From Bradyrhizobium septentrionale (lineage in GTDB: Bacteria; Pseudomonadota; Alphaproteobacteria; Rhizobiales; Xanthobacteraceae): a DNA stretch of 64,000 nucleotides. The position numbers were made by a program, and so were the translations under genes. Each line of letters opens with the position of its first letter. Position 1 is the stretch's first letter. Below the pieces are notes generated by a model. That model did no database searches. It saw only the letters and a program-made list of their open reading frames with translations, and was not told the DNA's origin. The stretch covers positions 2,374,501 to 2,438,500 of the forward strand of contig NZ_CP088285.1 in NCBI RefSeq assembly GCF_011516645.4, given 5' to 3'. Shown piece by piece: positions 6,637 to 51,403 of this stretch.

Positions 6637-7164
6637 ATGTCTGATCAATTCCTGGCCGAGATCCGCATTTTCCCGTGCAACTTCGCACCCTCCGGATGGG
6701 CCTTCTGCAACGGCCAGCTGATGCCGATCTCGCAGAACACCGCACTGTTCTCGCTGCTCGGCGCCACCTATGGTGGCGACGGCAAGTCCAACTTTGCCTT
6801 GCCCAACCTGCAAGGCAGTTCGCCGATGCAACCGGGGCAAAGCTCGTTCGGCACCGTCTACGATCTCGGGCAGTCCGCCGGCACGACGACCGTGACCCTG
6901 CTGCAATCCGAAATGCCCCTGCACAACCACGGGGTTTTGGGCAATATCAATCAGTCCCAACTCGCCACACCCAGCCCGGTGCGATCGCTTGCGCGCGCAA
7001 ACCCGGGGCAGGCCTACACGGCAACACTGACCAACATTTCGCCGTTCTCGGCAACCAGCTCGATTATGCCGATCGGCGGCGGCCAGCCCCATAACAACAT
7101 GATGCCGTACCTCACCTTGAATTTCTGCATCGCGTTGCAGGGTATTTTCCCGGCGCGCGGCTGA
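6637..7164 (+). CDS. Phage tail-collar (MdpB-type) domain protein 3
   Basis: A 175-residue third paralogue: GWAFCNGQLMPISQN, ATYGGDGKS, ALPNLQG, and EMPLHNHG; ends LNFCIALQGIFPARG. It carries an insertion of several residues after ALPNLQG (SSPMQPGQSSFGTVYD) not found in the other two. An AGGACGGG element precedes the ATG at 6637. The gap to the acetyltransferase start is only 7 nt, supporting an operon. Confidence 0.9.
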   Translation: MSDQFLAEIRIFPCNFAPSGWAFCNGQLMPISQNTALFSLLGATYGGDGKSNFALPNLQGSSPMQPGQSSFGTVYDLGQSAGTTTVTLLQSEMPLHNHGVLGNINQSQLATPSPVRSLARANPGQAYTATLTNISPFSATSSIMPIGGGQPHNNMMPYLTLNFCIALQGIFPARG

Positions 7165-7171
7165 GCCGGCC

Positions 7172-7732
7172 ATGGCGGATGGTCCGCGCACGGACAGTGC
7201 TCTCGCGGCGTTCGGATGGACGCGCGCAGCGGATGCCGGCTTGAGCTTCCGTCGCATCGCCGAGGCCGATCTGCCCTTCCTCGGGCGGCTCTATGCCTCG
7301 ACCCGCGTCGAAGAACTGGCCGTGACGCCGTGGAGCGCGGAGCAGAAGGCTGCGTTCCTGGCCATGCAATTCCGGGCACAGCACGTGCATTACCAGCACT
7401 ATTATCCGACGGCCGACTGGCTGGTAACGATGCGCAACGGGGAGGACATCGGCCGTCTCTATGTCGACCGCTGGCCGAGCGAGCACTGCGTCATCGATAT
7501 CGCCTTCCTGCCGGAATATCGCGGAGTCGGTCTGGGCGGTGCGCTGATGCGCGACCTGCTCGACGAGGCCGCCGGAGCCGGCAAGCCGATGTCGATCCAT
7601 GTCGAGAAGTTCAATCCCGCGATGCGGCTCTATCGCCGGCTCGGCTTCGTCACCGAGGAGGACAAAGGCGTCTACGACCTGATGCGCTGGCGCGCGGCGG
7701 GAGCGACCGGCGCCCACGCCGCTTCAGCCTGA
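7172..7732 (+). CDS. GNAT-family N-acetyltransferase
   Basis: A 186-residue protein with the GNAT acetyl-CoA-binding motif A, IAFLPEYRGVGLGGALM (R-x-x-G-x-G/A pattern RGVGLG), about residues 110-126, and a C-terminal AMRLYRRLGF segment typical of the fold. The acceptor substrate cannot be read from the sequence. It starts 7 nt after the third tail-collar gene, so it is probably translated from the same message; linkage of a GNAT enzyme to tail-collar proteins suggests modification of the collar proteins or of a partner, which is inference. Confidence 0.85.
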   Translation: MADGPRTDSALAAFGWTRAADAGLSFRRIAEADLPFLGRLYASTRVEELAVTPWSAEQKAAFLAMQFRAQHVHYQHYYPTADWLVTMRNGEDIGRLYVDRWPSEHCVIDIAFLPEYRGVGLGGALMRDLLDEAAGAGKPMSIHVEKFNPAMRLYRRLGFVTEEDKGVYDLMRWRAAGATGAHAASA

Positions 7733-7744
7733 ACAAAACGCGCC

Positions 7745-7783
7745 AGAGCATTTCGGTTCTGATTCAGTGAGAACCGAAGCTCT
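7745..7783. repeat. Palindromic intergenic repeat between convergent genes
   Basis: The arms AGAGCATTTCGGTTCT and AGAACCGAAGCTCT form a long imperfect hairpin between the 3' ends of the acetyltransferase (+) and the DUF6916 gene (-), overlapping the stop codon of the latter. It is one of several short palindromes of a kind dispersed in Bradyrhizobium genomes and could act as a bidirectional terminator here. Confidence 0.7.
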
Positions 7784-8090
7784 AGGTGAAGACCGCCTGA
7801 TAGCCATTGCCATCTGCAAGCGGACCGACCGGCACCAGGAAGATCTCCATCACGCCGAGCGTCGGATGCCGCACCGGATGGATCGCCTGAGGCAGCCACG
7901 CTCCCTTTGGCCCGGCAAACAGCAGCGAGAACGCACCGCCCGGCCGCCCGCTGTTGCCCGCGGACTCGACCTTGGCAAGCTTCAGCGCCAAGACGTGATC
8001 TGCCGCCTGCATCTCGAACTCCGCGTCCTGATGCGGCGTGAAGTCATCAATCCGCAATGTCGCGAGGTCGACGGTGGATGTCATGCGCAC
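7782..8090 (-). CDS. DUF6916-like small protein
   Basis: A 102-residue protein. The pattern (short N-terminal beta segment with LRIDDFTPHQDAEFEM, central FSLLFAGP, then HPTLGVMEIFLVPVGP and a terminal YQAVFT) matches my memory of the DUF6916 family, small beta-rich proteins of unknown function often found near tail-collar genes. Two start codons are possible (8090 or the ATG two codons later). It converges on the tail-collar/GNAT operon. No signal peptide or membrane segment is visible. Confidence 0.65.
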   Translation of the reverse strand: MRMTSTVDLATLRIDDFTPHQDAEFEMQAADHVLALKLAKVESAGNSGRPGGAFSLLFAGPKGAWLPQAIHPVRHPTLGVMEIFLVPVGPLADGNGYQAVFT

Positions 8091-8175
8091 GTTCCCAATT
8101 GCATGCGACGTGTAACACGCCGCGCGATGTTGCCGTCAAGGTTTCTGGCGGACGTCCGCAATCGAGGCCCTGTGT

Positions 8176-8278
8176 CGTCATTCCGGGGCGTGCGAAGCAC
8201 GAGCCCGGAATCCATCACGCCGCAGTACCGTGGATCAATGGATTCCGGGTTCTCGCTTGGCGAGCCCCGGAATGACGA
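8176..8278. repeat. Dispersed palindromic repeat, family A (CGTCATTCCGGGGC ends)
   Basis: Begins CGTCATTCCGGGGCG and ends with the inverted CCCCGGAATGACG. Related copies in this window are at 28405-28447, 30292-30419 and 38265-38364. All are outside genes. Confidence 0.8.
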
Positions 8279-8330
8279 GAAGATGGAGTTGCCCCTGCCA
8301 CTGAGTTGCCCGACGGCGCAAGCCCTTCGC

Positions 8331-8810
8331 TCAAAAATATTTCGGTTTATCGGAATGGAAACTCAGTGTATGGTTCGCCCGTCTCACCCGATCGAGGGGC
8401 GCTTCGCGATCGTCACGAACGCGGTGTGGGATGCGGTGGACGCTGAGCGCGCAGTCGACGAATGCGCGTGGATAGCGGACGGTGAAGTCGTGTGGTCCTG
8501 ACGCCCTAGCGGCCGGTGTCCCCTTGGAAGACGCAATTGCGTCTTGCGAAGGCGGTGACAAAAAAGCCAAGTCTCGCCGGGGAGAGCGCGAAATAAGCCG
8601 TAACCCATCGCGCAGGGAAAGCCGGATTGCTCCGGTTACACCTGTGGTCCTACCCCCGTGCTTTCTACCTTTGCACGGGGCCCATGGGTGCGATCGGCAC
8701 CCGGCTTTCCCTGCGCCCTCTGCTTCCAACGAGGGCAAGTAAACGCAAGACTCGGGTGCATCGCGCCGCGAGGATGCGGATGTATGTCTCAGCTGGCGCC
8801 ACATATTCGA
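8331..8810. repeat. Dispersed ~0.5-kb Bradyrhizobium-type repeat containing a spurious reading frame
   Basis: This stretch contains a long minus-strand frame whose translation includes VTGAIRLSLRDGLRLI and SPRRDLAF, a string I recognise as recurring in many predicted 'hypothetical proteins' of Bradyrhizobium; it has no ribosome binding site and unusual Arg/Ser/Pro composition. I interpret it as a dispersed non-coding repeat, not a gene. It contains inverted segments such as GGAAAGCCGG near 8615 matching CCGGCTTTCC near 8702. Confidence 0.55.
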
Positions 8811-39139: not shown

Positions 39140-41362
39140 ATGGAAGCTCTCGCAAGCGCCGCATTTCATACCTCCCACAAATGGGCGCCGCCCGCTGATG
39201 CCAGCGACATCGTCAAGAGCATCCACGCGATGCTGCATCCGCGCAACATCGTGCTGGTCGGCGCTACCGACAAGCCCGGCAACTACGCCGAACGGATCTG
39301 GAACAATCTGGTCAAGTACGGATATGCCGGGGGCCTGTTTCCGATCAACGCCAAGCGGGAAGCGATCTGGGGCGTCACCTGCTACAAGGATTTTGCCAGC
39401 CTTCCCGAAAAGCCCGATCATGTGCTGGTGCTAGTGCCGGCCCGGTTTGCCGTGCAGGTGATCCGCGACGCGGCCGCGGCCGGCGCGCGCTCGGCGACCA
39501 TCGTCACCTCCGGCTTCAGCGAGCTGCAGGATGAGGAGAGCCAGCGGCTAGCGGTCGAGCTGAAACAGGCGATCAAGGAGACCGGGCTTGCCGTCACCGG
39601 CCCGAACTGCCTCGGCAATCTCAGCGCCGGCGAAAACCTGTTCACCAATATCGACGACCGCATCGTCACCATGGAGCAGGGCGCAGTGGCGATCGCCGGA
39701 CAATCCGGCGCGATCGTGATGGCGATCCGCCAGGCGCTGGAGGATCGCGGTGTCGGCGTCGGCTACATGGTCACGACAGGCAACGAATCCGGCCTCGAGA
39801 CGCCGGACCTGATGAGCTATTTCGCCGCCGATCCGAGCATCCGCGTCATCGTGGTCTATCTCGAAGGCGTCAGGAACACCAAAGTGTTTCGCGACGCCTG
39901 CAAGGCGGCCCGCGCCGCCGGCAAGCCGGTGATCGCGCTCAAGCTCGGCGCCTCCGAAGGCGGCCGCGCCGCCGCGATGGCGCATACCGGCGCGCTCGCC
40001 GGCTCGATCGAGACCTTCGATGCGATCTCGACCCGCGAAGGCGTGATCCGCGTGCGCGGGCTGGATGAATTGATCGAGACCACTGAGTGCTTCGTCCACG
40101 CCGACCCGCCGAAGGGCAACCGCCTTGCGGCGGTGTCGCTGTCGGGCGGCAAGCGCGGGCTCTTGATCGACGCGTTCTATTCCGCCGGGCTGAATTTTGC
40201 GCCGCTGAGCGAGAGCGCATCGGAGCAGCTGGCGAAGATGCTCGGGCCCGGCAGCATCGTCGGCAACCCGCTCGACGCCGGCTTCGCCGCGGTGGTCGAT
40301 CCCTCCGTCTACATGAAGTCGATCAAGATCATGATCGACGATCCAGACACCGACATCGTCATCATCGATGCCGAGCTGCCGAAGGCGCCGCACGAGCTGC
40401 GCGAGCGCAATCTGCGCATCGTCAACGACATGGCGGCCCAGGCCAACAAGCCGGTGATCTATATCAGCGCGATGTCGATCGGCTTCACCGAATTCACCAA
40501 GGGACTGCGCAAGTCGCTGCCCGATATCGCGGTGATGCAGGGCCTCGACCGTGCGGTCGGCGCGATCAAGTCGCTGATCGAATATGCAGGTCTGCGCAAG
40601 GAGGTGCCCGACATCGCCTCAAGCTCGAAGCCGTCCGCGCGCGCGGTGCTGGAGAAGACGCTGAAGGCGGCCAATGGCGCTGCCGCGCTCGACGAGGTTG
40701 CCTCGAAGAAGCTGCTCAAGGCCTATGGCATCCCGATCTCCAAGGAAGAGGTCGCGCAGACCGCAGCCGAAGCGGTGAAGATCGCCAAGTCGATCGGCTT
40801 TCCGGTGGTCGCCAAGGTGGTCAGCCCCGACATCCTGCACAAGTCGGATATCGGCGGCGTGGTGCTGAACCTCGCCAATGCGGCCGAGGTGAAGAAGGCG
40901 TTCAACGACATCACCGCGCGGGTGAAGAAGCTGAAGGGTAAGCCGAAGCTCGAGGGCATCCTGATCGCGCAGCAGGTCAAGGCCGACCTCGAGCTCGTGG
41001 TCGGTGCCTCGCTCGACGCCGAGATGGGTCCCGTGGTGCTGTTCGGCACCGGCGGCGTCGATATCGAGCTGATGAAGGACGTCGCCCTGGCCGGCGCACC
41101 GCTCGATGCCGCCGAGGCGAAGGAGCTGATCGCGAAGACCAAGGCTGGCGTCAAGCTGAAGGGCTATCGCGGCAAGCCCGCGCTGCACGAGCCGTCGGCG
41201 GTGAAGGCGCTGGTCGGGCTCTCCAACCTGATGGCGGATGCCAATGGCCGCATCGCCTCGATCGACGTCAACCCGTTCCTGATCAACAGCAAGCTCGGCG
41301 TCGCCGTCGACGGACTGATCGTGCTAAACAACGCCGCCGCCAACAAGGCGGCGGGGCATTAG
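39140..41362 (+). CDS. NDP-forming acyl-CoA synthetase (ADP-forming acetate-CoA ligase family)
   Basis: A 740-residue single-chain enzyme: CoA-binding domain (HPRNIVLVGATDKPGNYAERI), succinyl-CoA-ligase-like flavodoxin domain with GQSGAIVMAI and MAHTGALAGS, and a C-terminal ATP-grasp domain (FPVVAKVVSPDILHKSDIGG, ATP site). It interconverts acyl-CoA and acid with NDP/NTP through a phosphohistidine. ATG 39140 (MEALASAAF) was chosen over an in-frame start 156 bases upstream because it precedes the conserved region and follows a purine-rich AAGGATAGGG. Monocistronic; family-C palindrome downstream. Confidence 0.9.
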   Translation: MEALASAAFHTSHKWAPPADASDIVKSIHAMLHPRNIVLVGATDKPGNYAERIWNNLVKYGYAGGLFPINAKREAIWGVTCYKDFASLPEKPDHVLVLVPARFAVQVIRDAAAAGARSATIVTSGFSELQDEESQRLAVELKQAIKETGLAVTGPNCLGNLSAGENLFTNIDDRIVTMEQGAVAIAGQSGAIVMAIRQALEDRGVGVGYMVTTGNESGLETPDLMSYFAADPSIRVIVVYLEGVRNTKVFRDACKAARAAGKPVIALKLGASEGGRAAAMAHTGALAGSIETFDAISTREGVIRVRGLDELIETTECFVHADPPKGNRLAAVSLSGGKRGLLIDAFYSAGLNFAPLSESASEQLAKMLGPGSIVGNPLDAGFAAVVDPSVYMKSIKIMIDDPDTDIVIIDAELPKAPHELRERNLRIVNDMAAQANKPVIYISAMSIGFTEFTKGLRKSLPDIAVMQGLDRAVGAIKSLIEYAGLRKEVPDIASSSKPSARAVLEKTLKAANGAAALDEVASKKLLKAYGIPISKEEVAQTAAEAVKIAKSIGFPVVAKVVSPDILHKSDIGGVVLNLANAAEVKKAFNDITARVKKLKGKPKLEGILIAQQVKADLELVVGASLDAEMGPVVLFGTGGVDIELMKDVALAGAPLDAAEAKELIAKTKAGVKLKGYRGKPALHEPSAVKALVGLSNLMADANGRIASIDVNPFLINSKLGVAVDGLIVLNNAAANKAAGH

Positions 41363-41387
41363 GATTCGGCGCACAGCCAATCCATCA

Positions 41388-41490
41388 CCGTCACCCTGAG
41401 GAGGCCGCGAAGCGGCCGTCTCGAAGGGCGACGGCCCGGCTCTGGGCCGTGCATCCTTCGAGACGCGCTACGCGCTCCTCAGGATGACGG
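41388..41490. repeat. Dispersed palindromic repeat, family C
   Basis: CGTCACCCTGAGGAGGCCGC and CGCTCCTCAGGATGACGG ends with interior GTCTCGAAGGGCGACGG / GCATCCTTCGAGACGC. Located between convergent genes. Confidence 0.85.
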
Positions 41491-41530
41491 ATCTACGCAG
41501 CAGCGCGTGTGGCTCGATCAGGGAGCCGCG

Positions 41531-42292
41531 CTAAAAGCTCGCGCCCCATTGCCGCGCGGTCTGCATCACCCAGTCGCGATACAGCGTCAGCGGCGTGACG
41601 CCGGTAATGCCGCCGCAGCCGGCGGTGCCGTTCGGGCCGGTGGACCAGCTCACCACGCCGACGATCGCAGGCCCGCCTGGCTTGTCCTCGAACACCGGCG
41701 CACCGGAATCGCCGGTGCAGGCGCCGAGCCCGTCGCGCACGCCCTGCCCGACCGGATCGACCAGACGGATCTGCAGCGTGCCGGGCTTGCCGCTCGCGAT
41801 CAGGCCGGCGACACGAGTGCTGCCGCCGCTCTTGCCGTCGCCGCGCACCGCGACGCCGACGCCCGCGATGGTGAAACGGCCGCCGACCTGGATCGGAATG
41901 TTGGGCATGCCGAGCGCGGCCGGCGCCCTGCCTGCGACAGGCAGAGCGAGCTGCAGCAGCGCGACATCGGCGGTCGCGACATGATTGGTCATCGCCTGCA
42001 TCCGAAAGGCTGGATGGATCACAACCGTCCTGACGTCCTGCAGCTTCGGCTGCCGGTCTGCGCCATACTCGACGATCTTGTAATCGGCGCCGGGCTGCAC
42101 GCAATGCGCCGCGGTCAGCACCACTTTTGGCGCGATCAGCGCACCGGTGCAGAAATTGCCGCGCGAGCCAACGATCGTGACGACGGCGCGCGCCACGCCG
42201 TCGGTCGACGGCGCGCCGCCACCGACGATGGCGAACGCGGGAGCTGCCATCAACAGGGTCAGAAAGGCTGTCGCTCGCATCAGGCTCGTCAT
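41531..42292 (-). CDS. Secreted trypsin-like serine protease (S1)
   Basis: A 253-residue chymotrypsin-fold protease. Signal peptide MTSLMRATAFLTLLMAAPAFA is followed directly by IVGGG (residues 22-26), the canonical N-terminus of an active S1 enzyme. Catalytic His in LTAAHCV, Asp in TADVALLQL, Ser in GACTGDSGAPVF. No propeptide is seen, so export itself should expose the active N-terminus. Convergent with the preceding synthetase; divergent from the LuxR-type regulator. Confidence 0.9.
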   Translation of the reverse strand: MTSLMRATAFLTLLMAAPAFAIVGGGAPSTDGVARAVVTIVGSRGNFCTGALIAPKVVLTAAHCVQPGADYKIVEYGADRQPKLQDVRTVVIHPAFRMQAMTNHVATADVALLQLALPVAGRAPAALGMPNIPIQVGGRFTIAGVGVAVRGDGKSGGSTRVAGLIASGKPGTLQIRLVDPVGQGVRDGLGACTGDSGAPVFEDKPGGPAIVGVVSWSTGPNGTAGCGGITGVTPLTLYRDWVMQTARQWGASF

Positions 42293-42730
42293 GGAATCCA
42301 ATCGATCTGCATCAGAATTAAGCGTATCCGGAACGTGGCATTGCGTCGCTCGCACTTCGCCTCGGAGAACACGCAATCTTGTACAGAGCATCCGGCCCTG
42401 CACGCGTCAATTGTCTAAATATCTAGGCGTCGATCACTACGGCGTTGAAGTCGCCGCCGGATTCCTGCACGCGTCATCACATGCACGTGCTCCGCATCCG
42501 CCGTCTTGTCGCGATATGCAACACTTCGGATCACGTCGCGCGATCCGGACGACGCTCGAATGTGAACTGAGTCTCTTGATCATGCGCGCATCGCGGACGT
42601 AGTTTCCACCCGACAATGAAATAATACAACCTCTGGCAGCATGCCGCATTTACCTTCATGACTTTCTGGATGCCGGTGCCGTTGACTTTCATACGGCGCT
42701 CCATCCGCCATTTCGTTAAGTTCGAGGATA
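42293..42730. other. Divergent intergenic region, no gene seen
   Basis: About 440 bases between the S1 protease and the LuxR-type regulator. Only short chance reading frames. It should contain both divergent promoters; I could not identify convincing -35/-10 boxes or an operator. Confidence 0.6.
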
Positions 42731-43408
42731 ATGATGAGGATCGCGGTCGTCACGCCGATCAGGCTGTTCAGCGAGGGGCTCATCTCGAGCTTCCAGAACC
42801 ACGCCGAATTTGCGATCGAGACGGCGGTGCCCGATCTCGCCGGCCTGCGCCAAACACTCGAATCAAGCAGTGTGAATGTCATCCTGATCGACGTCACGCA
42901 GGGCATCGATCTCGACGAAGTGCGCGTGATTGCGAGCGCGCATGCGGAAGTCGCCCTGGTGGCGCTCGGCCTCAACGAAGACCGGCGCGAGGTGGTTCGC
43001 TGCGGCCGTGCCGGATTCAGCGGCTACATTTCCCGGAACGCCAGCTTCGATGAGCTCTGCCGCGCGCTGTCGGACGTCGCCTCGGGGCGGCTCGCCTGCA
43101 GCGCCGAGATTTCCGGCGGCCTGCTGCGCGCGCTGTTTTGCATGGAGCGTCAGACGGATACGATCGATGCGGATCAGGGCCTGACGCGTCGCGAGGGCGA
43201 GGTTCTCAAGCTGATTGGACAGGGCATGTCCAACAAAGAGATCGCGCGCGATCTCAATCTCAGTCTTGCGACTGTCAAGCATCACGTCCACCACGTGCTC
43301 CAGAAGCTCGGCCTGCCCCGCCGGGCGCTGGCGATGCGGCGCGTGCGCGAGGCGCCGTGGATCGCATCATCGGCGCCAGCGCCCGATCGGCGCCGCGAAC
43401 TCGGTTGA
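42731..43408 (+). CDS. LuxR/NarL-type regulator with degenerate receiver domain
   Basis: A 225-residue protein: receiver-like domain (residues 3-118) and LuxR HTH (about 148-205; LTRREGEVLKLIGQGMSNKE then IARDLNLSLATVKHHVHHVL). The phospho-acceptor equivalent Asp54 (ILIDVTQG) is present, but the acidic pair normally at positions 8-9 is Thr-Pro and the conserved Lys is Arg102 (SGYISRNAS). It may therefore act without phosphorylation. Encoded 348 bases upstream of the PatG-like protease on the same strand; it may regulate that locus. GAGG lies ahead of the ATG at 42731. Confidence 0.88.
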   Translation: MMRIAVVTPIRLFSEGLISSFQNHAEFAIETAVPDLAGLRQTLESSSVNVILIDVTQGIDLDEVRVIASAHAEVALVALGLNEDRREVVRCGRAGFSGYISRNASFDELCRALSDVASGRLACSAEISGGLLRALFCMERQTDTIDADQGLTRREGEVLKLIGQGMSNKEIARDLNLSLATVKHHVHHVLQKLGLPRRALAMRRVREAPWIASSAPAPDRRRELG

Positions 43409-43441
43409 TCCCGCTATCCTGAATTCCGTGTCCGACCGACC

Positions 43442-43488
43442 GCGGCGCGTCACGCTTCAGCGCGACGATGCGGCGCGTCACGCCGCAT
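43442..43488 (+). repeat. 14-bp direct repeat and hairpin downstream of the LuxR-type gene
   Basis: GCGGCGCGTCACGC occurs at 43442-43455 and again at 43470-43483. The second copy lies in a perfect 8-bp stem (ATGCGGCG / CGCCGCAT, 43468-43488). It could be a T-less terminator for the regulator gene or a binding site. Confidence 0.5.
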
Positions 43489-43508
43489 ACGCGCGCGTCG
43501 CGCCATGA

Positions 43509-43605
43509 GATCGATCCCGGCTAAATCCTTTGATCGATCATTCGGCCCACGCGATTGATCTCATGGATCGATCGGACCCCATCACCGGCTCGATCCTTTC
43601 TGATC
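43509..43605. promoter_or_regulatory. GATC-rich cluster upstream of the PatG-like protease
   Basis: Nine GATC tetramers lie within 97 bases (at 43509, 43513, 43532, 43536, 43557, 43566, 43570, 43592 and 43602), three of them as GATCGATC doublets. The cluster sits 150-250 bases upstream of the protease start. The arrangement suggests a protein-binding or methylation-sensitive region, but function is unknown. Confidence 0.45.
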
Positions 43606-43756
43606 CACCACGGCGAATAGCCCATTCGCGATGCACCTGTCACAACATCGCCAACGCAACGACATCCCGCTCTTTTCGCTCGCTGCGTAATTGCAGATTG
43701 CCGTGGAAGACGGATCGGCCGCGAGGATTTGCGGCAGGTCGGTCAGGACCTATTTC

Positions 43757-46204
43757 ATGAATCCAGTTGCCGACATCGCTGGTCTGGCTGCCTTGTGGCA
43801 GCGAACGTCGGGCGGCGACCCCGCGGTGAAGATCGCGATCATCGACGGCCCCGTCGATCTCAATCATCCCTCGCTCAGGCAGGCCCGTGTGGCGATGGGC
43901 GGCGAATTCGTCGCGCCGTCCTCGCCGATGATTCAGTCCGAGCACGGCACGCACGTCGCCAGCGTGCTGATGGGCACGCCCGGCAGCCCGGTGCTCGGCG
44001 TTGCGCCGAATTGCAGCGCGACCGTGCTCTCGATCTATCGCGAGAATGCGGGCGGACAGATCGAGCCGTCCTCGCAAAGCACGTTGGCACTCGCGATCAA
44101 CCAGGCGCTCGCCGCGGGCGCCGACGTCATCAATATCAGCAGCGGCCAGCAATCCGCGACGGGACAGGCCGATCGCATTCTCATTGACGCCGTGCGCGCC
44201 TGCGAACGCGCCGGCAAGCTGATCGTTGCCGCCGCCGGCAATGACGGCTGCCGCTGCGTCCAGGTGCCGGGCAGTCTCGCTTCGGTGCTGGCAGTGGGCG
44301 CATGCGATCTCACCGGCACCCCGCTGCCCTTCAGCAATTTCGGCGACGCCTATCTCGAGAACGGCATCCTCGCGCCGGGCGAGAACATTGTCGGCGCCTC
44401 GCCGGTCCGCAACGTCAGCCTGCGTTCCGGAACGAGCTTCGCCGCGCCGATCGTCGCCGGCGTCGTCGCCCTGCTGCTCTCATGCCTGCGCCAGAATGGA
44501 CGCAAGGCCGATCCGCAAGCCGTCCGTGCTGCGCTGCTCGAAAGCGCGGTGCCCTGCCGCAATGACGGCAGCGCCTCGCGCTGTCTCGCCGGACGTCTCG
44601 ATATTCCCGCGGCTGTCGCCGCCCTGCTTGGCGAGCAGGCGGACGCCGTCATGCCGTCGGGTGCCACGGCCGCGCCTCCCCGCTTCTGGGGAGTGTCCGC
44701 GCGCCCTTTCGTCCAACCGTCATCCGCCGCTCAGCCAACTGCAACCAGAGAGGGTTCCATGGGAGATCTATCAGCAATGTCTGCACCATCGGCTCCACGC
44801 ATTTTCGGGCCGGACGGCTCCGTCCTGCGAAGCAGTCCCGGGATCATGCCAAGCGAGGCTCAGGCTGTCGGGTCGGCACCTGTGGCCATGGCGGCCCCCG
44901 TTGATCACGGTGTCGTCGCCGCGCCGATCGCAGCGCCCGCGCCTTATCCCTATCACGCCCCTCATCCGGGCAGCGACGTGGTCTGGATGCCGGCACCGAT
45001 GCCGCAGATGGCAGCGCCGCAGATGATGATGCCGCAGATGGCGATGCAGTCGGCCGCCATGGTGCCGCAAGCCTGGCTGCAGCCGCAGCAGCTTCCGGCG
45101 CTGATGCCGAGCCACGCGCTTCCCGTCGCAATGCCGATGTACGAGGCACCCGCGGTTCGAACCAGCGAGAAGAGTTGCGGCTGCGGCGGCGGCGGCATGC
45201 GTCCGCAGAGCGCTACGCCCGAGTCCACCGGCCAGCTCGCCTTCCCGATCGGCAGGCTGTTCTACGATTTCGGCAAGGAAGCCCGCCTCGACTACTTCGT
45301 GCAGGCGATCGCCAACTGGCGCGACAGCCTGATCGGACGCGGCGATCCGGTATTCGGACCGGAGCGCGACCGCTCCGGCGATACCTCGGCGCCGTACAAT
45401 CCGGCGATCATGGCGCGCTATCTGTTGAACCAGGCCGAAGGCGAGACCTCAACGCCGGCCGGCTCCGGCAACAACTTCCCCGACGCCGACGCCATCACCT
45501 GGACGATGACGATCGATTCGATCCCGATCTACGCGATCAAGCCGCTCGATGTGTTCGGTCTCGGCTTCTTCGCGGCACTGATCCTCGCGCTGTGGCACCA
45601 GGAAGTCTCGCACGACGATCCCGCGACGACCCGCACCGTGGTGACCGCGACAGCGATGGCCGCTGACGCCGACGCGCGACCGACGACGCCCCCGGCATTC
45701 CCGCCGCGCGGCGGCGTGGCACGGGTCTCGATGGCCGGCTGGGTCGACAGCACCAACACGACCAAGCTGCTCAACGGAACGGTCGTGCCGACGCTGGTGA
45801 CCGATTGGCGCGGCTTCTACCAGTGGGATCTCTACACGCTGTTCGGACCCGACCCCGACACCTGGCCTGCCGGTGCCGAAGGCTTCCTCGAGCGGATCTA
45901 CAACGAATTCCGCAATGTCGGCCTCTCGCCGCAGGACCGGGCACTGAACTATTCCGCGATGAATGCCTACAACACGCGAAAGATCTTCAGTGACGTCGCC
46001 AAGAAGGGCCTGCGGCTCGACACCGTCGAAGTCGACCAGAGCGTGATCTGCCGTCCGGAATCGGTTTGCCACGACGTGACCTACCGCTTCTTCAATCCGA
46101 CGCAGGTCCTGACCCAGGCGCGCGAAGTCTATCAGTACACGATCGACGTGAGCGACGTGGTGCCGGTGGCGGTCGGGCCGCTGCGGCAGTGGCAGGTCTA
46201 TTGA
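43757..46204 (+). CDS. PatA/PatG-family (cyanobactin-maturation type) subtilisin-like protease
   Basis: An 815-residue protein. Residues 5-295: S8 protease with Asp30 (AIIDGPVD), His63 (SEHGTHVAS), oxyanion Asn162 (AAAGNDGC) and Ser227 (SGTSFAAP); the surrounding sequence (LAPGENIVGA, DPQAVRAALLESAVPC) closely resembles the PatA/PatG group used in cyanobactin precursor cleavage. Residues 300-470: Pro/Ala/Met-rich linker, then CGCGGGG at 474-480. Residues 495-815: C-terminal domain with LFYDFGKEARLDYF, like the C-terminal region of PatG. No signal peptide. ATG 43757 chosen (AGGA upstream; matches family start); a TTG 66 bases earlier is possible. Three small ORFs follow. Confidence 0.88.
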   Translation: MNPVADIAGLAALWQRTSGGDPAVKIAIIDGPVDLNHPSLRQARVAMGGEFVAPSSPMIQSEHGTHVASVLMGTPGSPVLGVAPNCSATVLSIYRENAGGQIEPSSQSTLALAINQALAAGADVINISSGQQSATGQADRILIDAVRACERAGKLIVAAAGNDGCRCVQVPGSLASVLAVGACDLTGTPLPFSNFGDAYLENGILAPGENIVGASPVRNVSLRSGTSFAAPIVAGVVALLLSCLRQNGRKADPQAVRAALLESAVPCRNDGSASRCLAGRLDIPAAVAALLGEQADAVMPSGATAAPPRFWGVSARPFVQPSSAAQPTATREGSMGDLSAMSAPSAPRIFGPDGSVLRSSPGIMPSEAQAVGSAPVAMAAPVDHGVVAAPIAAPAPYPYHAPHPGSDVVWMPAPMPQMAAPQMMMPQMAMQSAAMVPQAWLQPQQLPALMPSHALPVAMPMYEAPAVRTSEKSCGCGGGGMRPQSATPESTGQLAFPIGRLFYDFGKEARLDYFVQAIANWRDSLIGRGDPVFGPERDRSGDTSAPYNPAIMARYLLNQAEGETSTPAGSGNNFPDADAITWTMTIDSIPIYAIKPLDVFGLGFFAALILALWHQEVSHDDPATTRTVVTATAMAADADARPTTPPAFPPRGGVARVSMAGWVDSTNTTKLLNGTVVPTLVTDWRGFYQWDLYTLFGPDPDTWPAGAEGFLERIYNEFRNVGLSPQDRALNYSAMNAYNTRKIFSDVAKKGLRLDTVEVDQSVICRPESVCHDVTYRFFNPTQVLTQAREVYQYTIDVSDVVPVAVGPLRQWQVY

Positions 46205-46212
46205 CGCGATTG

Positions 46213-46296
46213 CTCCTCTGCGTTCGGAGGAGATCAGAACGTGGCGCGAAATCGGCGTCACGTGGTCCGGGGGATCGACGCGATGAGCGATCCCCT
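46213..46296 (+). other. Two RNA hairpins in the leader of the first small peptide gene
   Basis: CTCCTC / GAGGAG (46213-46232, 8-nt loop) and a perfect 8-bp GGGGATCG / CGATCCCC (46270-46295, 10-nt loop) lie between the protease stop and the peptide 1 start. Neither has a T-run. They may process the message or attenuate it. Confidence 0.5.
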
Positions 46297-46379
46297 GGGC
46301 GACGTCCAGCGACGGCTGCCCCGGTCGGTGCTCACCTCCCGTAGTTGCCGTCAATTCAAACCGAAAGAAGGAGCTGAAC

Positions 46380-46571
46380 ATGTACGCAAGGAACGACTTT
46401 GAGACCTTCGGAAGCGTGCGTAGCCCGATCCAGTGTGAGGGCATCGAGCGCGGTCCGAAGCGGATTGCTGAAGTGGCGACCAACGGGTCGGTCAACCCGC
46501 AGGGTTGGCAGGACATCCTCGGTACGGCCGTGCAGGCGCTGCCGGGCGTCCTCGGTGCTTTCGGCATCTGA
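46380..46571 (+). CDS. Small peptide 1 (63 aa), candidate substrate of the PatG-like protease
   Basis: Very strong translation signal: AAGAAGGAG seven bases before ATG 46380. The product has a polar N-terminal half with one Cys (Cys19 in SPIQCEG), a basic patch RGPKR (24-28) and a hydrophobic, Gly-rich C-terminal helix (DILGTAVQALPGVLGAFGI, 45-63). It resembles a precursor with an N-terminal leader and a C-terminal bacteriocin-like or membrane-active core, but I recognise no family. No cyanobactin recognition sequences (such as AYDG) are present. It sits 175 bases after the protease; a GC hairpin follows its stop codon. Confidence 0.65.
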   Translation: MYARNDFETFGSVRSPIQCEGIERGPKRIAEVATNGSVNPQGWQDILGTAVQALPGVLGAFGI

Positions 46572-46582
46572 TCGCCAAACTC

Positions 46583-46605
46583 GGGGCCCGGCGCTGTCGG
46601 GCCCC
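46583..46605 (+). other. GC-rich hairpin after peptide 1 gene
   Basis: Perfect 8-bp stem GGGGCCCG / CGGGCCCC with a 7-nt loop, 11 bases after the peptide 1 stop. No T-run follows, so it is more likely a partial terminator or mRNA 3'-end protector that lets some transcription reach peptide 2. Confidence 0.6.
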
Positions 46606-46629
46606 ACCCCCACCCTCGAGGAGGCCGAC

Positions 46630-46809
46630 ATGATACAGAAATCAACCGCCAGGAGCCCAGAGCAACAGCAGCAGAACGGTCGCCGGATCGAGCCCTCGGG
46701 GAAGATCGTCGTGTCCTCAGTCGTGAGCCACGCCTCGCTGCTCGCCGCGATCAGCGACCGCAACCCGATCATCGCCAAACGCACCACATCCGACGAGGAC
46801 AAATCCTGA
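46630..46809 (+). CDS. Small peptide 2 (59 aa), unknown
   Basis: ATG 46630 follows CGAGGAGG with six-base spacing, a near-ideal ribosome binding site. Composition: Gln-rich N-terminus (SPEQQQQNGRR), central hydrophobic segment KIVVSSVVSHASLLAAI (25-41), acidic C-terminus TSDEDKS. No known family recognised. Gene order and spacing (57 bases after peptide 1, 37 before peptide 3) indicate an operon with the other two small genes. Confidence 0.6.
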   Translation: MIQKSTARSPEQQQQNGRRIEPSGKIVVSSVVSHASLLAAISDRNPIIAKRTTSDEDKS

Positions 46810-46846
46810 CGTCGTCGTCATCACCGAACCTTAAGGAGCCGATGCC

Positions 46847-47188
46847 ATGGCAAGACCGCCCCGCAAATCCGGATCCGACAGCCCCGCCTCCCCGCCGCCG
46901 GCGGAAGCACCATCCGCAGCGTCAAGCATGGACCAGGCGCGGCGTCCGTTGGAGGCCGCTGTTGTCGCCCGTCCGAAGATCGCCACCACGCCCGCTCCGC
47001 CGACAACGTCGGCCTACATGGCGCCGCCACAGGGCCCGGGGGCCCCGCAGCAGATGCGCCATGATGGCTCGCCGCACTCGGAGGCGCGGCTCAACACCGC
47101 GATGAAGATCCTGCTCGATCCCAATGCGCGCGCGCTGCCGAGCAAGGTCTATTCCGGACAGGCGCGAAACTGGACCCGCCGGCCGTGA
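46847..47188 (+). CDS. Small protein 3 (113 aa), Pro/Ala-rich, unknown
   Basis: ATG 46847 is preceded by TTAAGGAGCC. The first 75 residues are low-complexity (PPRKSGSDSPASPPPAEAP, TTPAPPTTSAYMAPPQGPG); the last 35 are more ordered: HSEARLNTAMKILLDPNARA then PSKVYSGQARNWTRRP. No signal peptide or membrane segment. I recognise no family. Could be a scaffold, chaperone or immunity partner for the preceding peptides, or a substrate of the protease; all are guesses. Confidence 0.6.
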   Translation: MARPPRKSGSDSPASPPPAEAPSAASSMDQARRPLEAAVVARPKIATTPAPPTTSAYMAPPQGPGAPQQMRHDGSPHSEARLNTAMKILLDPNARALPSKVYSGQARNWTRRP

Positions 47189-47231
47189 TCGACGTTTCGC
47201 GTTGAGCCGCATCGATCTGCTGCCTAGACAT

Positions 47232-47267
47232 GCAACGGCCCGCCCGGTCCGGCGGCGCGGCCGTTGC
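47232..47267 (+). other. Hairpin separating the small-peptide genes from the methyltransferase gene
   Basis: A perfect 9-bp stem GCAACGGCC / GGCCGTTGC with an 18-base GC-rich loop, 43 bases after the stop of small protein 3. There is no T-run. It may end or reduce the small-peptide transcript before the methyltransferase gene. Confidence 0.5.
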
Positions 47268-47285
47268 CGCTCGTCGGAGAGAGAG

Positions 47286-47984
47286 ATGAACGAGAACAGC
47301 AATCCCCGCCCCCATACCCCTGGCCCCAATCTGCGCCGCGCGGCCTTCACATTCACAGGCCTCGGGATACTGCTGTTCCTCGCGGCCGGCACCATGCGAT
47401 GGGCCGGCGCTTGGGTGTTGCTGTTCGAGATCACGATCGGCGGGCTGATCACCGAGGCCTGGCTCGCGAAGCATGATCCGGGATTGTTGGCAGAGCGGCG
47501 CACCTCGCGCGGCCAGGCCGGATGGGATCGCATCATCACGACGATCATGCCGTTGCTGTGGCTGACGTGGCTGCCGCTGATGGCGCTCGACGCGGCGCGC
47601 TACCAGACATCGCTCGTCCCCGGTTGGCTGCAATGTGCCGGCGCTGTCATGATCGCGGCATCGTTCTACATCGTGTACCGGACCTACCGGGAAAACAGCT
47701 ATGCCGCGCCGGTCGTGAAGATCCAGCGCGAGCGCGGTCATGCTGCTGTGACCACGGGGCCCTACGCCTATGTGCGACATCCGATCTATGCCAGCGGGTT
47801 GCTGACCTATGTCGGCGCGCCGCTGCTGCTCGGATCCTGGTACGGCCTTGCCATCGTACCCGTCATGGCGGCGTTGCTCGGCTTGCGGGCGCTGATGGAG
47901 GAACGGATGCTCACCGCCGAGCTCGACGGCTATGCCGAGTATCTCGCCCGCGTACGCTACCGCCTGGTGCCGATGGTCTGGTGA
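47286..47984 (+). CDS. Isoprenylcysteine carboxyl methyltransferase (ICMT/PEMT)-like membrane protein
   Basis: A 232-residue protein with about five membrane segments and the family motif TTGPYAYVRHPIYASGLL (SAM/phospholipid-methyltransferase signature) near residues 157-174, followed by EERMLTAELDGYAEYLARVRYRLVP, the conserved C-terminal element, split near 199-223. Bacterial members methylate isoprenylcysteine-like thioether acids or lipids; substrates mostly unknown. ATG 47286 has GGAGAGAGAG upstream. It lies 97 bases after the small-peptide genes, separated by a hairpin, so membership in that locus is uncertain. Confidence 0.85.
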   Translation: MNENSNPRPHTPGPNLRRAAFTFTGLGILLFLAAGTMRWAGAWVLLFEITIGGLITEAWLAKHDPGLLAERRTSRGQAGWDRIITTIMPLLWLTWLPLMALDAARYQTSLVPGWLQCAGAVMIAASFYIVYRTYRENSYAAPVVKIQRERGHAAVTTGPYAYVRHPIYASGLLTYVGAPLLLGSWYGLAIVPVMAALLGLRALMEERMLTAELDGYAEYLARVRYRLVPMVW

Positions 47985-48153
47985 GCCGTTCCGCGTGGCG
48001 GATTTTCGCAGCAAAGTGGCGGCTTGCCTGATCGGCGGCAATTCCCATAAAGAGAACGGACACGCGTTTCCCTATCTTCCTGCCAGACGGCCGGAAGACG
48101 CGAGGCGAAGCCACCGCTTTGCAACGGGCAGGATCTTAACGGGCAGGATTTTG

Positions 48154-48786
48154 ATGATCGAGGCAGTGATCTGGGATTTCGGCGGCGTCTTGACCACCTC
48201 GCCGTTCGAGGCATTCGCGCGCTATGAGAGCGAGCGCGGCTTGCCGATCGACATCATCCGCCGCACCAACGCCGCCAACCATCTCGAGAACGCCTGGGCC
48301 AAGTTCGAGCGCGCCGAGATCGATATCGACGCCTTCGACGAACTGTTCGCCACGGAATCGAAAGCACTCGGCGCCGAGGTGCGCGGCAAGGACGTGTTGC
48401 CGCTGCTCTCGGGCGACCTGCGCCCCGAGATGGTCGAGGCGCTGAAGCGCATCAAGGCGCAGTTCAAGACCGGCTGCATCACCAACAATCTGCCGGCGAA
48501 CGCGATCGGCAGCCGCAGCGGGCGCACGCTCTACGTCGCCGAGGTGATGGCACTGTTCGATCACATCATCGAGTCCGCGAAGATCGGCCTGCGCAAGCCC
48601 GACCCGCGCATTTACCAGATGATGGTGGAAACGCTGCAGGTGAACCCGAAGAACTGCATCTATCTCGACGATCTCGGCGTCAATCTGAAGCCGGCGCGCG
48701 AGATGGGCATGACCACGATCAAGGTCGTGAATTCCGCGCAAGCGATCTCCGAGCTCGAAGCCGCGACCGGCCTCACGCTGAGGTGA
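48154..48786 (+). CDS. HAD-family hydrolase (YihX/ACAD10-like)
   Basis: A 210-residue HAD-IA phosphatase. Motif I is WDFGGVL (Asp nucleophile with Gly at the +2 position, as in YihX/ACAD10-type enzymes), motif II is CITNNLP, motif III lysine is in KIGLRKPDPRIY, and motif IV is IYLDDLGVNLKPAREMGM. ATG 48154 follows GGCAGGA; an upstream imperfect duplication (ACGGGCAGGAT at 48124 and again at 48139) doubles this ribosome-binding sequence. Substrate unknown. Confidence 0.87.
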   Translation: MIEAVIWDFGGVLTTSPFEAFARYESERGLPIDIIRRTNAANHLENAWAKFERAEIDIDAFDELFATESKALGAEVRGKDVLPLLSGDLRPEMVEALKRIKAQFKTGCITNNLPANAIGSRSGRTLYVAEVMALFDHIIESAKIGLRKPDPRIYQMMVETLQVNPKNCIYLDDLGVNLKPAREMGMTTIKVVNSAQAISELEAATGLTLR

Positions 48787-49045
48787 AGCGGTTTCCCCGC
48801 ACATTCACTTCGCATTCAGGCGGCAACTTCTAATCCTCGGCCTCCCCCCGGGTCACGGCACGATCGCGAAATCGCAACGTGATCCCTTCCTTGTCCGGGC
48901 TGCGCTTCTGCGTATTGCGCTCGGCGGAAATATCCCGGGAACCTTGCGCTAACCCCATGCCATTACGAGCCAAACGAGCCTTGTGCTTTGCCCGCAACGG
49001 GCGCAGAACTGGTCCGAGTTCAAGGCAAATCCGGAGCTGATCCTC

Positions 49046-49993
49046 GTGGCTGACACCAGGCCCACCGCCTCGATCGAGGCCGTGGAAAGCGGCCTCGCCG
49101 CGCAAGGCTATATTGCGAGCCGGCAGATCGCGACCGCGGTCTATCTGTCGCAGCAGATCGAGAAGCCGATCCTGGTCGAGGGCCCCGCCGGCGTCGGCAA
49201 GACCGAGCTGGCGAAGGCGATCGCCGCGTGGCGCGGCCTGAAGATGATCCGCCTGCAATGCTATGAAGGCCTCGACGAGGCCAAGGCGCTGTATGAGTGG
49301 AAATACGCCAAGCAGCTGCTTTACACCCAGATCCTGAAGGACAAGCTCGGCGAGGTGCTCGGCGGCGCGCAGACGCTGGCTGCCGCGCTCGACCAGCTGC
49401 ATACTTTCGGCGACGTGTTCTTCTCCAAGGAATTCGTCGAGCCGCGTCCGCTGCTGCAGGCGCTGGAGCAGCCGGCCGGCTGCGTGCTGCTGATCGACGA
49501 GATCGACAAGTCGGACGCCGAATTCGAATCGCTGCTGCTGGAAATCCTCTCGGACTTCCAGGTCACGATCCCCGAGCTCGGCACGGTTTCGGCGGTGGCG
49601 CCGCCGACCGTGATCCTGACCTCGAACAGCGAGCGCGACCTCGGCGACGCCTTGAAGCGGCGCTGCCTGCATCTGCATATCGGTTTCCCCGAGCAGAAGC
49701 TGGAAGAGCGCATCGTCGAGAGCCGCGTGCCCGGCATCTCGCAGACGCTGCGCAAGCAGATGGTCGGCTTCATCCACGAGATCCGCACGCTGGACCTGAA
49801 GAAGCTGCCCTCGGTCAGCGAGGCGATCGACTGGGCGCGCGTGCTGGTGCTGCTGCAGGCGAGCGAGCTCGACCACGAGATCGTCAAGGACACGCTCAAC
49901 GTGCTCCTGAAATACGAGGCCGATATCGAGGCCGCGACGCCACAGATATCGTCCTTCATCGCCAAGGCGTCGCGCCAGGGCGTGTTCAGCTAG
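49046..49993 (+). CDS. MoxR-type AAA+ ATPase
   Basis: A 315-residue AAA+ protein: Walker A VEGPAGVGKTELAKAI near residues 46-61, Walker B CVLLIDEIDKSD, sensor 1 VILTSNSERDL, and arginine finger region DALKRRCLHLHIGFP. I prefer the GTG at 49046 (VADTRPTASIEA), which matches the common family start and has CGGAG upstream; an in-frame GTG 63 bases earlier is possible. MoxR ATPases work with VWA proteins as metal-insertion or folding chaperones; the partner is the next gene, 6 bases downstream. Confidence 0.9.
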   Translation: MADTRPTASIEAVESGLAAQGYIASRQIATAVYLSQQIEKPILVEGPAGVGKTELAKAIAAWRGLKMIRLQCYEGLDEAKALYEWKYAKQLLYTQILKDKLGEVLGGAQTLAAALDQLHTFGDVFFSKEFVEPRPLLQALEQPAGCVLLIDEIDKSDAEFESLLLEILSDFQVTIPELGTVSAVAPPTVILTSNSERDLGDALKRRCLHLHIGFPEQKLEERIVESRVPGISQTLRKQMVGFIHEIRTLDLKKLPSVSEAIDWARVLVLLQASELDHEIVKDTLNVLLKYEADIEAATPQISSFIAKASRQGVFS

Positions 49994-49999
49994 ACCAAG

Positions 50000-51403
50000 A
50001 TGCGCGAGAACCTGCATCGCTTCTTTCGTGCGGCGCGGGGAGCCGGGGTCCGGGTCTCGCCCGCCGAAAGCATCGATGCGATGCGCGCGGTGGCCCAGGT
50101 CGGCTTTGCCGACCGCGACATCCTGCGCGACACGTTCCTGCTGACGCTTGCCAAGACGCAAGACGAGAAGCGCGCGCTCGGCGAGTGCTTTGACCTGTTC
50201 TTCAGCCAGCCCGAGCCGCAGCAGAAGAGCACCGAGCAGAGCATGACGGACGACAACAGCGAGCAGGGCAGCAATCCGTCCGCCGATGAACATGGCGACA
50301 CGGCCGGCGCTGCCGCCAACGAGAATACCCCCAACGAGAATACCCCCAACGATGTCGGGCCGCTGGCGCAGATGCTGCTGTCGCAGGATCGGTCCGCGAT
50401 ATCGACCGCGATCGCCAACGCCTCCGGCGCGGCCTCGCTGCCCGACATCCGCTACTTCACCCAGCGTGGCATCTTCCAGACCCGCATCCTGGATGCGATG
50501 GGCATCCAGCGCCTGCGCGACGATATCGACGACCTGACCACGCGCAATCCGGGGCTCGCCGAGCGACTGCAGGAGGCGCTCAACGGCCTGCGCGGCACCG
50601 TGCGCGACGCGGTCTCGCAAGCCCTGTTGCTCTACGGCCGTGAAGAGGCGGAAAACCTGCGCAACGAGATCCTGCGAAACGCGCCGCTGGCGCGGATCGA
50701 GCCGCGTCAGGTCGAGCAGATGCGCGCGCTGATCCGCCGGATCGCGCGCCGGCTGCGCGAGCGTTACTCCAAGCCGCGCAAACGTCAGCGCCGCGGCCAT
50801 CTCGACGTCCGCCGTACGCTGCGGCGGAACGCGGCCTGGGGCGGCGTGCCGTTCCTGACCGCGTGGAAGCGCAAGCATCGCGACCGGCCGAAGATCGTGG
50901 CGCTGTGCGACGTCTCCGGCTCGGTCGCCCGGGTCTCGGACTTTTTCCTGCTCCTGATCCACAGCCTGCATGAGGTCGTCGACGACGTCCGCTCATTCGC
51001 GTTCTCGGGCCATCTGATGGAGGTCAGCGACATCCTGGAATCGAAGACGCCGGAAGAGGCGATGAAGGAGATCATGTCCAAGGTCGGCTTCGGCTCGTCC
51101 GACTATGGCAATTCCTTCGCCGATTTCGAGGACAATTGGATGAGCGCGATCACGCCGCAGACCACGGTGATCGTGCTCGGCGACGCCCGCAGCAACAATC
51201 TCGATCCGCGCGCCGACATCCTGCGCCGCATCGGCGAGCGCTCCAAGCGGCTGGTGTGGCTCAACCCCGAGGGCCGCATGGTCTGGGGCTTTGGCGATTC
51301 CGAGATGCCGCGCTACGCGACCTTCTGCACCGTGGTGCGCCAATGCGCGACTGCGCAGCAGCTCGAGCGTGCCGTCTCCGACATCGTGGCGACGTATCAA
51401 TAG
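50000..51403 (+). CDS. CoxE-like VWA domain protein
   Basis: A 467-residue cytoplasmic protein of the CoxE/VWA family, the usual partner of MoxR ATPases. N-terminal helical region (FRAARGAGVRVSPAESIDAM), an acidic low-complexity stretch containing a 15-base tandem duplication (NENTP NENTP, about residues 108-117), then a VWA domain with MIDAS VALCDVSGSVA near residue 300 and the later VIVLGDARSNN. ATG 50000 lies 6 bases after the ATPase stop codon, so the two are co-expressed. Confidence 0.9.
   Translation: MRENLHRFFRAARGAGVRVSPAESIDAMRAVAQVGFADRDILRDTFLLTLAKTQDEKRALGECFDLFFSQPEPQQKSTEQSMTDDNSEQGSNPSADEHGDTAGAAANENTPNENTPNDVGPLAQMLLSQDRSAISTAIANASGAASLPDIRYFTQRGIFQTRILDAMGIQRLRDDIDDLTTRNPGLAERLQEALNGLRGTVRDAVSQALLLYGREEAENLRNEILRNAPLARIEPRQVEQMRALIRRIARRLRERYSKPRKRQRRGHLDVRRTLRRNAAWGGVPFLTAWKRKHRDRPKIVALCDVSGSVARVSDFFLLLIHSLHEVVDDVRSFAFSGHLMEVSDILESKTPEEAMKEIMSKVGFGSSDYGNSFADFEDNWMSAITPQTTVIVLGDARSNNLDPRADILRRIGERSKRLVWLNPEGRMVWGFGDSEMPRYATFCTVVRQCATAQQLERAVSDIVATYQ

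Follow-up and report, generated by a model that had tools for sequence, protein, structure and literature searches.

The window analysed here, a 64,000-nucleotide stretch of Bradyrhizobium septentrionale (contig NZ_CP088285.1, positions 2,374,501 to 2,438,500), carries a gene for a subtilisin-like protease of the PatA/PatG kind, followed on the same strand by three small open reading frames (ORFs) of 63, 59 and 113 amino acids (aa), here called p63, p59 and p113. The 63-aa protein shows the layout of a precursor peptide and is proposed to be the substrate of the protease. These two genes were found to be organized as follows:

43757..46204, plus strand: PatA-type subtilase with C-terminal PatG_D and PatG_C domains, 815 aa (ATG at 43757; the stop codon ends at 46204)
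43823..44548, plus strand: Peptidase_S8 domain, residues 23–264 (PF00082, 1.3e-33)
45242..45643, plus strand: PatG_D domain, residues 496–629 (PF18047, 29.0 bits, cutoff 27)
45872..46192, plus strand: PatG_C domain, residues 706–812 (PF18065, 110 bits, cutoff 25.9)
46380..46571, plus strand: p63, proposed precursor peptide gene (27/27 Bradyrhizobium genomes with the close type of protease, 0/238 others)
46425..46457, plus strand: leader motif PIQCEGIERGP of p63, residues 16–26 (119/120 listed homologues fit the pattern)
46485..46502, plus strand: junction GSVNPQ, residues 36–41, with a proposed cleavage site after Q41 (at +20 from the motif start in 118/119)
46503..46568, plus strand: core GWQDILGTAVQALPGVLGAFGI, residues 42–63, proposed mature peptide (in the family as a whole a hydrophobic, amphipathic-helical segment of variable sequence)

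The start codon of the protease was backed by its homologues, the majority of which open with MNPV or MDPV. A sequence-only reading of this DNA had described a protease with a complete subtilisin triad, and this was located at Asp30, His63 and Ser227; by analogy with subtilisin, Asn162 would be the oxyanion residue. Among 25 aligned proteases D30, H63 and N162 were invariant and S227 was conserved in at least 90%. The C-terminal segment quoted in that reading, LFYDFGKEARLDYF, is present and sits where the PatG_D match begins. With TIGR03895, the PatA/PatG model, the protease scored 464.2 bits compared to a curated cutoff of 421.05 and, with PatG_C present as well, it is not a generic S8 peptidase. 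The PatG_C region matched PDB entry 4uvq (E 5.1e-27 across protease residues 665–813), and the domain is the counterpart of the PatG domain of unknown function (DUF).

The designation of the enzyme as PatG-like had to be changed. A structure-database comparison showed it to be nearest to PatA/PagA, to which it aligns without the extra Asp–His stretch of PatG, whereas the PatG macrocyclase structures are about 37 residues longer there (query residues 47–57 compared to chain residues 56–103). Since this stretch, which we take to be the macrocyclisation insert, is missing, the protease is by sequence comparison PatA-type and not PatG-type, and its assignment as a PatG-like macrocyclase was rejected. 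An AlphaFold2 model of the protease was weak (mean pLDDT 62, pTM 0.40), and the PDB matches of this model cover its S8 half.

A profile search with the 63-aa protein gave 157 homologues, of which 120 were listed and 119 analysed. In their common layout, a leader with P-x-Q-C-E-G-[IV]-x-R-G-P is followed by the junction G[SA]V[NQ]P[QA] and then by a core of 18–29 residues that extends to the C-terminus. In the pattern used to split the sequences, P, Q or H, R, G and the junction P are fixed in advance and the remaining columns are free; Gly at motif position 6, which is not among the fixed residues, was present in 118/118. Among the 119 sequences, 98 leaders and 115 cores were distinct, and column entropy was below 1.9 bits in 24 of 26 leader columns, compared to 1.65–3.22 bits in the first 16 core columns. 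No core contained Cys (0/119), Tyr made up 0.1% of core residues and Gly, Leu, Ala, Ile and Val together two thirds, and the mean hydropathy (GRAVY) was 1.15 for cores compared to -0.45 for leaders. The hydrophobic moment at 100 degrees per residue exceeded that of a core's own shuffles (z >1.64) in 36 of 50 non-redundant cores, compared to 17 at 90 degrees, 10 at 110 and at most 4 at the ten remaining angles; residual kinship of the 50 cores inflates this count, and alone would not select the helical angle. The cores are thus predicted to be amphipathic helices despite their sequence diversity. A conserved leader, a variable core and a cognate enzyme nearby, which are the general criteria for precursors of ribosomally synthesized and post-translationally modified peptides, were all found, and the earlier statement that cyanobactin precursor motifs are lacking was too strong, as the 63-aa ORF has diverged leader-like and cleavage-site-like motifs.

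In Bradyrhizobium, a protease match at 1e-60 was found in 32 of 265 genomes, 27 of the close type and five more distant. The close-type protease was in one frame in 26 genomes and split across two frames in one (L122, G239:C1:7436365-7438817), where the small ORFs were still found. The 63-aa family profile was positive in 27 of the 265 genomes, which were identical to the 27 with the close protease, and in 0/238 others. In wider samples, each including the window's own genome, the protease was found in 10/149 genomes of the family (at a looser cutoff, and including some short frames whose domains went unchecked), 4/297 of the order and 2/385 of the class. PatG_C was found in 2/398 genomes of a phylum sample, and the own genome has a single PatG_C match overall. 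This patchy distribution would also suit a toxin, defence or stress module with the protease as effector under the control of the small proteins, and the protease shows weak S8 similarity to the PADLOC subtilase and IetS models. These matches, however, are of 81.9 and 30.6 bits and to the S8 part alone, compared to 464 for PatA, and PADLOC gave no match for the 63-, 59- and 113-aa proteins or for the methyltransferase encoded downstream of them; we regard such a module as most improbable. An anti-phage system was rejected on the PADLOC results.

Conserved small ORFs beside homologous proteases, an expectation raised by the sequence-only reading, were recovered in the survey of related loci. 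Relatives of the 63- and 113-aa proteins were found by BLAST beside proteases of 45–55% identity (L029, L032 and L033), and a relative of the 59-aa protein outside Bradyrhizobium by a BLAST match in one locus (L029) and in two more by eye. The wider hosts were Xanthobacteraceae, Kiloniellales and another alphaproteobacterial metagenome-assembled genome (MAG), and a Rhodobacteraceae MAG contained the 63-aa type. That a different protease-peptide system exists is therefore well supported, whereas its confinement to Bradyrhizobium-like bacteria does not hold. In L032 and L033, 63-aa-type pairs with different cores stand in tandem beside one protease, and several metagenome contigs seemingly contain two or three different 63-aa copies, as judged from equal contig sizes alone. 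On the same indirect basis, which carries little weight, 63-aa and protease matches fell on same-size contigs of at least 5 kb for 20 of 34 listed matches (15 of 27 distinct sizes).

The strict co-occurrence suits a subunit of the enzyme as well as a substrate. The 63-aa protein could then be a small regulator or targeting subunit, comparable to PatB/PatC, which are short proteins encoded in cyanobactin clusters, with its leader docked to the enzyme and its hydrophobic tail anchoring the complex in the membrane; cores of 18–29 residues are long enough for a membrane helix, and a P.L..PV.R start is common to the PatB proteins of L072, L081 and L083, which are not known to be substrates. On the other hand, a precursor needs both the tandem copies that differ in their tails next to a single protease and the fixed PatA-site-like junction of the family, and an anchor needs neither. 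We consider the subunit explanation unlikely, and cleavage of the 63-aa protein by the PatA-type protease fairly likely.

Other peptides linked to PatA/PatG proteases were compared with the 63-aa leader and junction. Of 30 protease ends, 17 had small ORFs with P.Q..[PG][VI].R, a pattern composed after viewing some of the peptides, in the 3 kb downstream, compared to 0/30 on the opposite strand, 1/30 upstream and 0/144 windows (0/1820 ORFs) of the own genome. The 30 ends belong to 27 loci and five of them to the 63-aa clade, which leaves 12/25 outside that clade; the sole upstream match (L083) is itself a motif-bearing peptide. Seven of the 13 misses are in loci with LAELSEETL precursors (L081, two ends each in L082 and L083) or annotated cyanobactin genes (two ends in L072), and at these ends the precursor is located elsewhere or the fetched stretch ends. 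Among the others, relaxed motif variants were seen by eye in L084, L087 and L071 and divergent ones in L088, the motif ORFs of L037 begin 2.9 kb downstream, and the 1.5 kb of L091 contain no such ORF. The hosts of P.Q..P[VI].R peptides were Streptomyces plasmids (L074/L075), a Pirellulaceae MAG (L035), an Alteromonadaceae MAG (L034) and other genomes of the window's order. At these non-cyanobacterial loci, as here, a PatA-type protease is followed by short ORFs, often also with G[VIL]x[PA]S; they differ from the 63-aa family in their mostly Cys-rich cores (hydrophobic in Streptomyces) and in P instead of G in the motif, and those of their proteases that were placed in the tree fell into clades other than the 63-aa clade.

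The PatA consensus site is given as G(L/V)E(A/P)S in an excerpt of PMC10885120. A loose pattern for such a site, counted without a shuffled control, was found after the motif start in 24 of 30 non-63-aa peptides, at 17–22 residues in 19 and at 24–30 in five. The 63-aa leader shares this spacing, P-x-Q-[CS]-x-G-[IV]-x-R and a junction at +20, with Gly replacing Pro. As a candidate for a site like recognition sequence II (RSII) before the core, GSVNPQ resembles the consensus and aligns with such sites in the profile comparison, but the result of a joint matrix test was weak. In profile-profile comparison the 63-aa family aligned with the other peptides motif on motif and site on site (score 24.6; 0/300 column-shuffled decoys). 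This includes three bridging peptides, one of them from Acaryochloris (PNQSIGQIR ... SGGVQPS). The leader and junction appear, more weakly, to resemble the motifs of other PatA/PatG-linked peptides, the support being mixed. A tree of 19 proteases, from those 19 of the 27 loci that passed a length and residue filter, showed the five 63-aa-type ones to form one clade (100/100), apart from the cyanobactin-type loci L072 and L081–L083 and from the others sampled. The filter removed L034, L035, L071, L073, L074, L075, L080 and L087 and the second proteases of L072, L082 and L083.

From gene content, co-occurrence, synteny and the motif and core statistics we infer the recognition, cleavage point, product and activity as follows. 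The protease, probably cytoplasmic, would recognise the N-terminal leader of the precursor via PxQCxG[IV]xRGP, perhaps with help from its PatG_D/PatG_C module; this module may read the leader, as it is found with these peptides whether or not a heterocyclase is present. The precursor would be cut once, after GSVNPQ, to give an amphipathic helix of about 22 residues that carries no modification, GWQDILGTAVQALPGVLGAFGI in the window, for which the calculated monoisotopic mass is 2182.18 in linear form. This product would most likely be a bacteriocin-like or signalling peptide that is linear and membrane-active: linear, because no second protease, nearby YcaO, core Cys or AYDG-type or other C-terminal recognition site was found, and membrane-active, because the core is a predicted amphipathic helix. 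Taken as a whole, such a leader-guided peptide system is the explanation that we favour and consider probable, with somewhat less assurance than the cleavage itself; for an action of the product on membranes we see even chances.

A circular product, made by cutting and joining the ends as in cyclic cyanobactins, would fit a protease family that includes macrocyclases, and the hydrophobic amphipathic cores recall circular bacteriocins. The missing Asp–His stretch speaks against it, as does the lack of an apparent second cut: the core reaches the C-terminus with no AYDG-type (RSIII) site behind it, and Tyr is almost absent from the 119 homologous cores. This makes head-to-tail cyclisation very unlikely.

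Several results weigh against a leader-guided system with cleavage of the 63-aa protein. The 157 homologues were collected with a leader-dominated profile, which favours a conserved leader in the set. With a motif matrix trained on the other peptides, p63 ranked only 76th of 2550 ORFs; with the joint motif-plus-site matrix it ranked 78th of 2550, and 307 of 5000 shuffles of p63 reached its score. The profile-profile score fell to 18.3 (1/300 decoys) without the three bridging peptides, and the hhalign probability from 42% to 6%. Among Bradyrhizobium orthologues picked via the protease, the rate of nonsynonymous differences (pN) rose from 0.016 in the leader to 0.088 in the core, and the core diverges faster than the leader; since the synonymous rate (pS) is also higher in the core (0.311 compared to 0.094; pN/pS 0.28 compared to 0.17; 17/25 distinct sequences), the sequences give no sign of positive selection at short range. 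The island proteins scanned carry no transporter or immunity annotation. Finally, the isolated PatG DUF showed no binding to PatE' by nuclear magnetic resonance (PMC4259220), contrary to docking of the leader on this domain.

Besides the protease and p63, the island contains four further genes:

42731..43408, plus strand: regulator of the LuxR/GerE type, 225 aa, with which the island begins (PF00196, 6.4e-17; present together with the protease in Bradyrhizobium loci)
46630..46809, plus strand: p59, conserved small protein of 59 aa with an RNPII motif
46847..47188, plus strand: p113, conserved small protein of 113 aa with a DPxAR...YSGQ.R.W tail (127 homologues)
47286..47984, plus strand: methyltransferase of the PEMT/ICMT type, with which the Bradyrhizobium island ends (PF04191, 4.2e-11; PF04140, 2e-8)

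In eight of eight genomes chosen as protease-less, the flanking divergent genes for a trypsin-like protein and a HAD protein were adjacent, and these empty sites showed no match at 1e-5 to the protease, the 63-, 59- and 113-aa proteins or the methyltransferase. For LuxR, four of the eight gave no match and four a short helix-turn-helix match (44–46% identity, residues ~147–201). Because the block is absent at these sites, luxR, the protease, p63, p59, p113 and the ICMT-like methyltransferase form one unit in Bradyrhizobium. The methyltransferase was not found in L029, L032 and L033, and LuxR gave at most a weak match there (25%, opposite strand, in L029); since distant alphaproteobacterial loci keep relatives of the small proteins without these two, this suggests that the regulator and the methyltransferase are local additions; in Bradyrhizobium both belong to the island. 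No repeat of 10–20 bases was common to the two island ends tested, and the G+C content was not unusual. A sigma-70-like promoter was not found within 42300–48200, where terminators were not in excess over shuffles, and Rfam gave no match at gathering score within 40000–50000.

The three same-strand small ORFs were confirmed to be preceded by ribosome-binding-site-like stretches (AAGGAG for the 63-aa, GAGGAGG for the 59-aa and AAGGAG for the 113-aa ORF). In the 63-aa ORF, three segments gave pN/pS ratios of 0.17–0.28; the ratio was 0.15 in the 59-aa ORF and 0.26 in the 113-aa ORF. These values were computed from the distinct sequences equal in length to the window's own copy (17/25, 20/29 and 15/29, respectively), leaving out other lengths (8/25, 9/29 and 14/29), 64-aa core variants being among those dropped. 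Low pN/pS together with relatives recognisable beside distant proteases argues that the small ORFs are real genes and more than chance, and the 59- and 113-aa proteins are by the same comparisons under purifying selection and travel with the protease system. In one Bradyrhizobium (L026 and L058) the N-terminal part of the 113-aa protein is apparently out of frame or diverged and the C-terminal part is conserved. The idea that the small proteins are substrates of the protease gained a clear precursor anatomy for the 63-aa ORF and none for the 59- and 113-aa ORFs, which would encode dedicated partners (escort, immunity or further substrates). A leader common to the 63-aa protein and the 59- or 113-aa protein was rejected (profile P 0.06 and 0.33, respectively); the PPQxxG seen in the 113-aa family is suggestive at most. 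The identification of the 113-aa protein as PatC was also rejected (113-aa family compared to three PatC-like proteins, profile P 0.55). The 63-, 59- and 113-aa proteins showed no match to Pfam or to an NCBIfam cyanobactin model at E up to 1, and none of the small island proteins matched TIGR04220 (PatB) or TIGR04447 (PatC).

The island resembles the cyanobactin pathways (PatA/PatG, PatE; TIGR03895, PF19155) in its PatA-type protease with PatG_D/PatG_C, and the 63-aa protein resembles cyanobactin precursors in its N-terminal leader motif, protease-site-like junction and variable core. Unlike those pathways, it has no heterocyclase, second protease or AYDG site, and its core is a Cys-free predicted amphipathic helix of 18–29 aa. 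The leader motif here is PxQCxGxxRGP, compared to LPxQxxPVxR plus LAELSEEAL in cyanobactin leaders; LAELSEETL was seen in L081–L083. Cyanobactin clusters have two proteases, A and G, compared to the one PatG_C match in the whole genome here. As had been noted earlier, no YcaO gene is nearby: the only YcaO match of the genome lies about 5.4 Mb from the island, within an 815-aa open frame (L092, G000:C2:7871306-7872286). Heterocyclases and prenyltransferases each occur in some cyanobactin clusters. No prenyltransferase match was found among the six island proteins scanned, no model search having been aimed at prenyltransferases. Because it has one protease only and no precursor-model match, the island is not a cyanobactin cluster by defining features; it is a variant of the PatA-protease/precursor kind. 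Linear cyanobactins are prenylated, methylated short peptides with azoles. A linear product is expected here too, and of that machinery nothing was seen except the ICMT-like gene. The aeruginosamide/viridisamide type of linear cyanobactin is named in PMC4663559.

Class II and leaderless, amphipathic bacteriocins share with the core a hydrophobic amphipathic helix and the lack of modification enzymes. Class II leaders are removed by a double-glycine transporter protease, whereas leader removal here is proposed to be by a PatA-type enzyme.

Rows of different short ORFs after one protease were also observed elsewhere. In the Streptomyces plasmids (L074:8580-10493 and L075:8430-9969) one PatA-type protease is followed by up to six of them, several of which have hydrophobic tails and [VIL]E[PA][SDA] junctions. 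In a Bradyrhizobium locus (L085:9670-10606) there are four, each with an LPxQxxPVxR-type motif and a Cys-containing tail. PatB starts with P.L..PV.R (L072:13577-13792, and PatB or PatB-like ORFs of L081 and L083), resembling the precursor leader motif, and by this likeness PatB may be related to the precursors or bind the same enzyme site.

Cyanobactin-type clusters were found in other Bradyrhizobium genomes. L083 (1333-9110) contains two TIGR03895 proteases, PatB (TIGR04220) and a SagD-type heterocyclase above cutoffs, with a precursor of the LAELSEETL type (TIGR03678 below cutoff). L082 (7537-15380) contains PatB and a SagD-type protein above cutoff, a precursor above the PF19155 cutoff and two protease C-termini detected by tblastn, and L081 (~3100-8440) a PatA-type protease, PatB- and PatC-like ORFs seen by eye and an LAELSEETL precursor. 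These clusters contrast with the statement of a 2015 review that cyanobactin-type clusters had been identified in cyanobacteria alone (PMC4663559). For Roseomonas oryzae, a passage of PMC8776678 mentions a cyanobactin peptidase gene and an expected cyanobactin-like product.

The 63-aa homologues named by source among the matches listed were called 'hypothetical protein', and no publication on the PatA-type protease/63-aa system was found among open-licence PMC papers. It is conceivable, although we hold it to be rather less probable than its opposite, that PatA-type proteases of many phyla run broad, mostly uncharted leader-guided peptide systems, with the cyanobactins as one branch among them. 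In such systems PxQxx[PG][VI]xR, and not the LAELSEEAL heterocyclase signal, would be the general recognition element read by PatG_D/PatG_C, the alphaproteobacterial branch would consist of unmodified amphipathic helices, and PatB might be a motif-bearing relative of the precursors. The precursor reading of the 63-aa family itself predicts more than 100 short, sequence-diverse, probably membrane-active peptides in alphaproteobacteria. The structural study of the PatA/PatG C-terminal domain did not settle its role (PMC4259220), and the system described here offers a testable proposal for it: if true, reading of the motif by PatG_D/PatG_C would give this 'domain of unknown function' its role.

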